Origin: a virus | Length of the DNA: 36,343 bases | IMG/VR virus record: IMGVR_UViG_3300028573_000036 | Span: 1 to 36,343 of that record | Reading direction: 5' to 3' (one strand) | Part shown: one piece after another, positions 18,278 through 36,343 of the stretch | How positions within the stretch are numbered: the first letter of the stretch is position 1 | Layout of the letters: every line of letters starts with the position of its first letter | Position numbers and translations under genes: made by a program | Notes under the pieces: generated by a model | What the model saw: only the letters and a program-made list of their open reading frames with translations | What the model was told of the DNA's origin: nothing | The model's database searches: none

Positions 18278-18784
18278 TTATTTCACCTTTTTTCTGCCCT
18301 CTTTTGCATGAAGCCTCATATGGCAAGATATGCAGAGGATTTTTCCATTTTCTATGTCAAAACGCAATTCGGGAAATTCATAAAAACATTTTAAATGATG
18401 TGCATGAAGTCGTTCAGTTTTCCCACAAGTTTCACATTTGTGTCCACATCTTTCAAGTAATTTTTCTTTCCAAATTTTATAAGCTATATGACATCTATCT
18501 TGATCTTCATTTTCATGAACATTTTTCTTCCAATGATGTCTACCTTCTTTTACAGCTATTTTTTGCCCTCTAGATATAGCTAAACGATGCTCTAAACTAT
18601 ATTTTCTTCCTTGCAGTTTTTTCCTTTGCGATTCTATCTGGTCTGGAGTCCGAGACCACTCATCAAGCTGTCGCGTCTCATAACATTCCCTACAAGTAAC
18701 TGTACGCCCATCTGCCTGTCTTTTATCGACTTTAAATTTCTGAATTCTTTTTGTATCACCACATCTTCTACATGTCTTTTCCAC
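18278..18784 (-). CDS. Free-standing HNH homing endonuclease with NUMOD3-like motif
   Basis: Selfish nuclease that cuts DNA lacking its gene. The N-terminal CRRCG and later CRECY make a zinc ribbon. A GRKYSLEHRLAISRGQK segment (about residues 60-80) matches the NUMOD3 DNA-binding type. The C-terminal CETCGKTERLHAHHLKCF then CISCHMRLH is the HNH core with its zinc Cys pairs. GTG 18784 is preferred over TTG 18790 because GGAG is 6 bases before it. It lies between two fibre genes and directly abuts the 258-aa gene. Confidence 0.92.
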   Translation of the reverse strand: MEKTCRRCGDTKRIQKFKVDKRQADGRTVTCRECYETRQLDEWSRTPDQIESQRKKLQGRKYSLEHRLAISRGQKIAVKEGRHHWKKNVHENEDQDRCHIAYKIWKEKLLERCGHKCETCGKTERLHAHHLKCFYEFPELRFDIENGKILCISCHMRLHAKEGRKKVK

Positions 18785-18811
18785 AATCAACTCCGTTTTT
18801 AAGTTGATTGT
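18783..18811 (-). promoter_or_regulatory. Hairpin that hides the HNH ribosome site
   Basis: Inverted arms of 10 bases (ACAATCAACT 18783-18792, AGTTGATTGT 18802-18811) with a 9-base loop. In the mRNA the start codon lies in the stem, and the GGAG is half in the stem and half in the loop. Hairpin masking of the ribosome site is established for T4 intron endonuclease genes; here it is inferred. Confidence 0.7.
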
Positions 18812-35935: not shown

Positions 35936-36150
35936 CATTATGTTACTCTTCTTTTTAAGAAGGGGAAAACCTCTTCGGATTCTCCTCACGACCTTTATTT
36001 ATTCGCCGTGTTCAGACTATCGCTTCCTCTTTCGAGGTCTTCTTACTTAGTCGTTCAGGCTGCAAGAAGCATTTCGGCTTCAGCTTGCCCCTTGTCACCC
36101 TGGAGGGTTTCCAAGTCAATCAAAGAAGATTTAGAGAGACCTAACATTTT
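35936..36150 (-). ncRNA. Group I self-splicing intron in the capsid gene (about 215 nt)
   Basis: 5' site: exon GAGGCT (36156-36151) pairs with GGTCTC/GG (36141-36136) as P1, with the required U-G wobble at U36151. Core: hairpin ACCCT/AGGGT, GAAGC/GCTTC hairpin, P7 GACTA (36052-36048) with TAGTC (36019-36015), P8 CCTC-GAAA-GAGG (36037-36026); P3 candidate TCTTCTT (36129-36123) with AAGAAGA (36044-36038). 3' end ACATAATG, last G at 35936, the same ending as the T4 td intron. Splicing restores LLGQEA/YGVVRLG in frame. No endonuclease ORF inside. Confidence 0.87.
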
Positions 36151-36258
36151 AGCCTCTTGCCCAAGCAAAAAGCTTGAGTATATTGGTCTAGTAGTACCAC
36201 CAACAGATGCACCACCACTGTAGCCGTTCGTGTTGAGCAGCCAGCGAGCGTTGCGTGT
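36151..36258 (-). CDS. Major capsid protein, internal exon
   Basis: 36 codons from about TRNARWLL through GGASVGGTTRPIYSSFLLGQEA; the left boundary is approximate. In the capsid family a short strand with Y-x-x-x-L-x-G-x-x-A directly precedes the YGV strand, exactly what joining at 36151/35935 makes. All three frames are closed upstream between 36290 and 36343, so the exon cannot simply continue in that direction. Confidence 0.7.
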
Positions 36259-36263
36259 ACTTC

Positions 36264-36343
36264 CCCCGAAGTACTTGTTACTCAATGACTTACATCATTG
36301 GGGCTAGTCCTTTCGGCTAACCTCTCAACATTACTGCTGAGTC
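36264..36343 (-). other. Likely 3' part of a second group I intron in the capsid gene
   Basis: A series of compact hairpins: CTCAGCA-GTAA-TGTTGAG (36341-36324), GGTTAGCC-GAAA-GGACTAGCC (36322-36302), CAATGA/TCATTG (36300-36283) and GTACTTC/GAAGTAC (36274-36257). Two have GNRA loops, typical of group I peripheral stems. No reading frame is open here. The 3' splice site probably lies between 36258 and 36285. The core is outside the window, so the class is inferred. Confidence 0.55.

Follow-up and report, generated by a model that had tools for sequence, protein, structure and literature searches.

The major capsid protein (MCP) gene of a phage is interrupted by an ORF-less insert of 215 nt that is very probably a group I intron, whose splicing would yield a continuous capsid protein of the podovirus type. 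The insert lies on the minus strand (36150-35936) of a 36,343-nt stretch of viral DNA (IMG/VR record IMGVR_UViG_3300028573_000036, hereafter the window), and the phage has no cultured host. The insert has the structure of a group I intron, the exons around it join exactly, it occurs sporadically among related phages, and homologous introns sit at other sites in the same gene. Covariation and pairing with the exons are decisive for its identity as group I, of which we are nearly certain; splicing itself we infer from sequence comparison. We also propose that the frame of the exon, which runs on into the intron and stops directly after Ala-Ala, encodes a degron. This proposal is weaker than the identity of the intron, and we consider it about evenly balanced.

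Table 1. Features of the MCP gene and its introns in the window (P1 to P8 refer to the 215-nt intron)
Feature	Position	Strand	Basis or remark
Internal MCP exon, GSTRNARWLLNTNGYSGGASVGGTTRPIYSSFLLGQEA	36151..36266	-	Homologues read ..EWGSTRNVRWLL..LLGQEA; spliced translation
Last MCP exon, YGVVRLG...LISTHS and stop codon	35762..35935	-	phrog_1357 major head protein, profile positions 297-345/356
Probable ORF-less group I intron, 215 nt	35936..36150	-	Splice-aware alignment, joining in homologues, R1 match, identical copies in L082 and L083
Insertion site of the 215-nt intron			Phase 0; follows codon 256 of the homologue L010
3' part of second group I intron, site 223, phase 1, inside Trp codon T/GG	36267..36343	-	Cut by window edge
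Exon reading frame extended into the intron, KMLGLSKSSLIDLETLQGDKGQAEAEMLLAA and stop	36055..36150	-	Leu-Ala-Ala codons 36066-36058; stop TGA 36057-36055
P1	Exon AGAGGCT 36157-36151 / internal guide GGTCTCT 36141-36135	-	U.G at splice site; 7 bp
Catalytic core	36015..36129	-	A3 covariation counts; coordinates checked letter by letter
P3	36129-36123/36044-36038	-	
P4	36115-36112/36094-36091	-	
P5	36107-36105/36100-36098	-	
P6	36090-36087/36060-36057	-	
P7	GACTA 36052-36048 / TAGTC 36019-36015	-	
P8	CCTC-GAAA-GAGG 36037-36026; strands 36037-36034/36029-36026	-	

Boundaries of the intron and joining of the exons

On the minus strand, ..LLGQEA (to 36151) is followed by the 215 bases and then by YGVV..ISTHS and a stop (35935-35762). 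The joined exons (the C-terminal 91 amino acids) match the PHROG family phrog_1357 (PHROG 1357, "major head protein") with E = 3.8e-9, which is better than the last exon alone (E = 1e-4). A full-length MCP homologue matches phrog_1357 (4.4e-41) and the Pfam family Phage_capsid_4 (PF25209, 1.7e-6); the "N4 gp56-like" label that a preliminary description of this DNA had used was not confirmed. Among annotated proteins, the MCP is nearest to those of Bacillus phages (Page, Pony, and Pookie) and of Paenibacillus phages, with which it shares about 27-29% identity.

That description had also placed both splice sites, and it was right to the base: when the raw sequence was aligned to an intronless capsid homologue by splice-aware dynamic programming, the intron came out as exactly 36150-35936, in phase 0. 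It had called for a comparison with capsid homologues across the LLGQEA/YGVV junction, and the junction is unbroken in 80/80 of the homologous viral contigs that we found (aligned singly). With the G at 35936 as the last intron base, the exons join exactly with respect to these 80 homologues. The 3' end of the intron, ACATAATG at 35936, had been likened to that of the T4 td intron; these eight letters do have one match in the T4 td region, and it lies where the td intron ends. Finally, two ORFs had been said to join into one capsid C-terminus. The joining is correct, but the start of the upstream ORF (36055-36285) lies inside another intron. This second MCP intron and the in-frame Ala-Ala tail had been overlooked.

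Conserved helices and exon pairing

The Rfam model for group I introns, RF00028, gave no match in the window at gathering or relaxed thresholds (E ≤ 5) and no match in the related introns. The check suggested at the outset was thus negative, but the T4 td intron (L087:3788-4018), which we used as a control, also fell under the gathering score (40.3 bits, E = 1.6e-8; gathering score 50). RF00028 is blind to the MCP intron family, and the lack of a match does not speak against the intron. As RF00028 at its gathering score misses T4 td, screens based on Rfam give too low a count of phage group I introns. Our own covariance model, R1, scored the 215-nt intron at 117.7 bits, with that intron being itself a training row of R1, and it did not match T4 td.

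Because RF00028 was silent, we tested the structure comparatively, by covariation and exon pairing. In an alignment of 10 related ORF-less introns (A3; helices P3, P4, P5, P6, P7, and P8 were counted), the pseudoknotted P3-P7 core, along with P4-P6 and P8, is kept by compensatory change. Within P3-P8, 99.3% of cells are paired, compared with 35-48% if the partner is slid, and 17/28 pairs have two-sided changes. There are 42 cells with two-sided changes, as against 11.4 in shuffles, and the covariation score is 0.490, as against 0.146 (0/500 shuffles were as high on any measure). P1 with U.G at the junction, P7 (GACTA/TAGTC), and P8 with its GAAA loop, as originally described, all hold on the minus strand.

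The introns also match their exons. P1 has 5-9 bp in 28/28 introns, at 13 sites, and averages 6.7 bp with the native exons but 3.2 bp if exons are swapped between sites. Similarly, P10 averages 3.5 bp (native) and 1.1 bp (swapped) across the 28 introns; the P10 of the window's 215-nt intron has just 2 bp, which counts against it. A U precedes the intron and G is its last base in 28/28 introns (our aligner rewards this rule, and the homologues fix the positions to within one or two bases). Taken with the exact codon joining in the 80 homologues, the P3-P8 covariation and the P1/P10 exon matching uphold the initial claim of an ORF-less group I intron in the MCP gene.

Could the insert be a scar that does not splice, so that the capsid gene is broken, or is read by ribosomes that bypass the insert as in T4 gene 60? 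Rfam is silent and splicing is our inference, which would fit, but covariation extends to the complete set of group I helices, the exon pairing is re-matched at 13 sites, the exons still code for a conserved capsid protein, and other contigs carry this insert intact. Also, bypassing elements do not have a group I core. We consider a scar highly improbable. An artefact of assembly or chimerism could be suspected because the contig break lies inside the upstream intron. However, L082 and L083, contigs that come from other IMG/VR samples, match the window at 100% identity along more than 5 kb that includes the 215-nt intron, and 25/80 homologues have introns in the MCP gene, so that an artefact is hardly conceivable.

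A second intron at the window edge

L082 and L083 are 100% identical to the window across its right end and include more of the MCP gene (L083 has the whole gene). Both carry a complete intron of 251 nt at site 223, which is identical to the window over 36267-36343, so the window begins inside intron 223 and the contig break falls within it. The window has ..KYFGGSTRNARWLL in place of the ..NALEAEWGSTRNVRWLL of homologues. An intron is also present at site 223 in L053. L083 spans both ends of the window and shows a gap of ~3.8 kb from window end to window start. It also rules out the edge sequence GACTC.. as P7 of the second intron, as it places GACTC.. 3' of P7.

At sites 223 and 92, the final intron bases are complementary to the first bases of the 3' exon (for example, GTACTTC/GGGGAAGTAC and AGCTC/GGGGAGCT). 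We saw this at 36257-36274, at L053:5207-5220, and in the site-92 introns of L004, L049, and L072, and both sides covary between phages. At these two sites, selection of the 3' splice site may involve a hairpin that spans it.

Spread of introns among capsid genes

Introns interrupt the MCP gene in 25/80 homologous loci at 12 sites, or 13 sites if the window's codon 256 is included (we left out a spurious call at the C-terminus of L007). In the near relative L048, the intron body is 84% identical over 154 nt but lies at a different site (codon 299), with P1 re-matched. When R1 was run over 871 kb around capsid genes, it matched solely at places that we assign to capsid-gene introns; the loci selected by motif include one intron in a portal gene (L164). 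Related-subfamily capsid genes (L114, L115, L128, L166, L169, L172, and L181) apparently have three or more introns each, as estimated from R1 matches, of which a long intron can give two. In genome contigs, a scan with the MCP found no relative. A scan for the tail motif described below found just three contigs of ~39-41 kb, in bins called Parachlamydia, Methanomicrobiales, and Bacteroidales.

The 215-nt intron has no homing endonuclease. Genes for LAGLIDADG endonucleases, some on the opposite strand, are found in longer relatives of this intron that occupy other sites of the gene. The window also encodes a free-standing HNH endonuclease (18278-18790, minus strand) among repetitive, fibre-like genes, which could mobilise ORF-less introns in trans.

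Intron-bearing phage capsid genes have precedents in LittleE and Tuc2009. The capsid gene of mycobacteriophage LittleE contains a group I-type intron whose splicing was proven by RT-PCR (PMC3706429). In contrast to our case, the phage and the capsid are unrelated, the intron contains an endonuclease, and there is one intron per gene; the window's MCP family has up to two per gene, and apparently more in related capsid genes. The major structural protein 4 gene of Tuc2009 is likewise a capsid gene with a group I intron, but this intron contains an HNH gene, and its in-frame end is ..PAWS, without Ala-Ala. The T4 td and nrdB introns (IA2) are not in capsid genes. The td intron shares the 3' end noted above but stops at the junction (..FLG), and the in-frame end of nrdB is ..SFA rather than Ala-Ala. 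In the searchable literature, we found no precedent for the number of sites within one capsid family or for the frame-locked Ala-Ala ends.

In-frame tails that end in Ala-Ala

Among 28 distinct introns of the window's MCP family, at 13 sites and in three phases, the first in-frame stop falls directly after Ala-Ala in 27 (19 LAA, 3 IAA, 2 QAA, 2 EAA, and 1 DAA; the remaining one is EVA). A second tally with other inclusion rules gave 28/28. By chance, stops in these loci follow Ala-Ala in 0.37% of cases and Leu-Ala-Ala in 0.06%, and shuffled introns never exceeded 2/28. As the introns share ancestry, we do not take binomial tail probabilities as evidence. If the insertion phase is added to the length between the 5' splice site and the GAC conserved at P4, the sum is divisible by three in 23/25 introns, so the length of the 5' segment offsets the phase and the frame is kept. 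(Of the exceptions, L008 is a site-87 intron, a class in which the guide comes after the end of the tail, and in L004 the GAC was mis-picked.) Most introns encode the tail in the P5 loop. Five, the window's 215-nt intron among them (36066-36055), encode it in the 3' strand of P6, and four site-87 introns in the P1 loop. The third positions of the alanine codons vary (GCT 27, GCA 14, GCG 8, GCC 7).

In a wider sample (collected by core motif with any gene or tail; S-box-selected), the frame was kept in 28/28 introns with a recognisable capsid exon, but just 12/28 end in Ala-Ala. Several loci keep the frame and end in VALS, VAFS, VAMS, VYC, or ILS instead (L278, L301, L315, L319, L325, L331, L350, L352, and L379). 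These sub-lineage ends are possibly another protease signal or host-specific. The tail-motif scan is biased to LAA, and we used it for the frame and for the spread among genes, not for the 27/28.

We picture the splicing as follows. The intron RNA would fold into P1-P8, an external guanosine would attack the 5' splice site marked by U.G, the terminal G (35936) would set the 3' splice site, and joining of LLGQEA to YGVV would give an uninterrupted capsid protein. We further propose that ribosomes on unspliced mRNA would read on from the exon, in frame, as far as ..LLAA, and that the ssrA-like C-terminus so formed would mark the truncated capsid fragment for ClpXP-type degradation. The C-terminal Ala-Ala-COO- is the key contact for ClpX and the main ClpXP determinant (PMC7652416), and the window's tail has this end. 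Some tails are similar to the tmRNA tag (..QAEDEYLLAA in L048 and ..EAQAEQYALAA in L128; the E. coli tag is ANDENYALAA). Like the ssrA tag, the putative degron has a C-terminal Leu-Ala-Ala, but it would be encoded by the intron and translated solely from unspliced mRNA, not added by trans-translation. We found no relevant open-licence literature on intron-encoded ssrA-like tags or degrons.

Alternatively, the frame might be kept so that ribosomes halt at a chosen place (the P5 loop or P6), which would protect the folding of the remaining ribozyme. Ala-Ala would then be incidental, arising from the P6 strand or from a GCUGC(N)UAAGC hairpin. According to reviews, the usual group I intron has its stop just past the junction, and such in-frame stops keep ribosomes out (PMC3073962, PMC3984707). 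In the wider sample, it is the frame that is universal rather than Ala-Ala. Also, the letters in the 3' strand of P6 that encode Ala-Ala and the stop are present in introns that stop earlier, and the LittleE and Baka tail, GCTGCGTAAGCAGC, forms a hairpin whose loop is GUAA, so part of the Ala-Ala signal could be RNA structure. (The introns in the LittleE capsid gene and the Baka minor tail gene likewise stop after alanines, at ..SVATAAA and ..DDLAAAAA. They share a similar 5' segment and tally as one case; the portion of PMC3706429 that we could consult does not mention the tail of the LittleE intron.) On the other hand, known introns such as T4 td stop at once past the junction, whereas here the ribosome is admitted for 28-97 nt. 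Also against stop placement are the Ala-Ala ends of 27/28 introns, where chance would give 0.37%, the RLAA, ALAA, LLLAA, and EVA that site-87 introns encode in the P1 loop with unrelated letters, and the free variation of the alanine third positions. We view stop placement as a rather unlikely explanation. As for the degron, we stop short of calling it proven because of the 12/28 in the wider sample.

Implications

Phage capsid group I introns have been known one by one, but here they occupy 13 sites in one capsid-gene family, with P1 re-matched at each. As these introns are invisible to Rfam, annotation breaks up a gene that is widely used as a phage marker and leaves hypothetical fragments. 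There is perhaps an even chance that the intron family that colonises these MCP genes encodes an in-frame C-terminal tag that mimics ssrA, so that host ClpXP would destroy capsid fragments from unspliced mRNA before they poison head assembly. If so, then the introns would carry their own quality-control device, with the length of the 5' segment tuned to the insertion phase.
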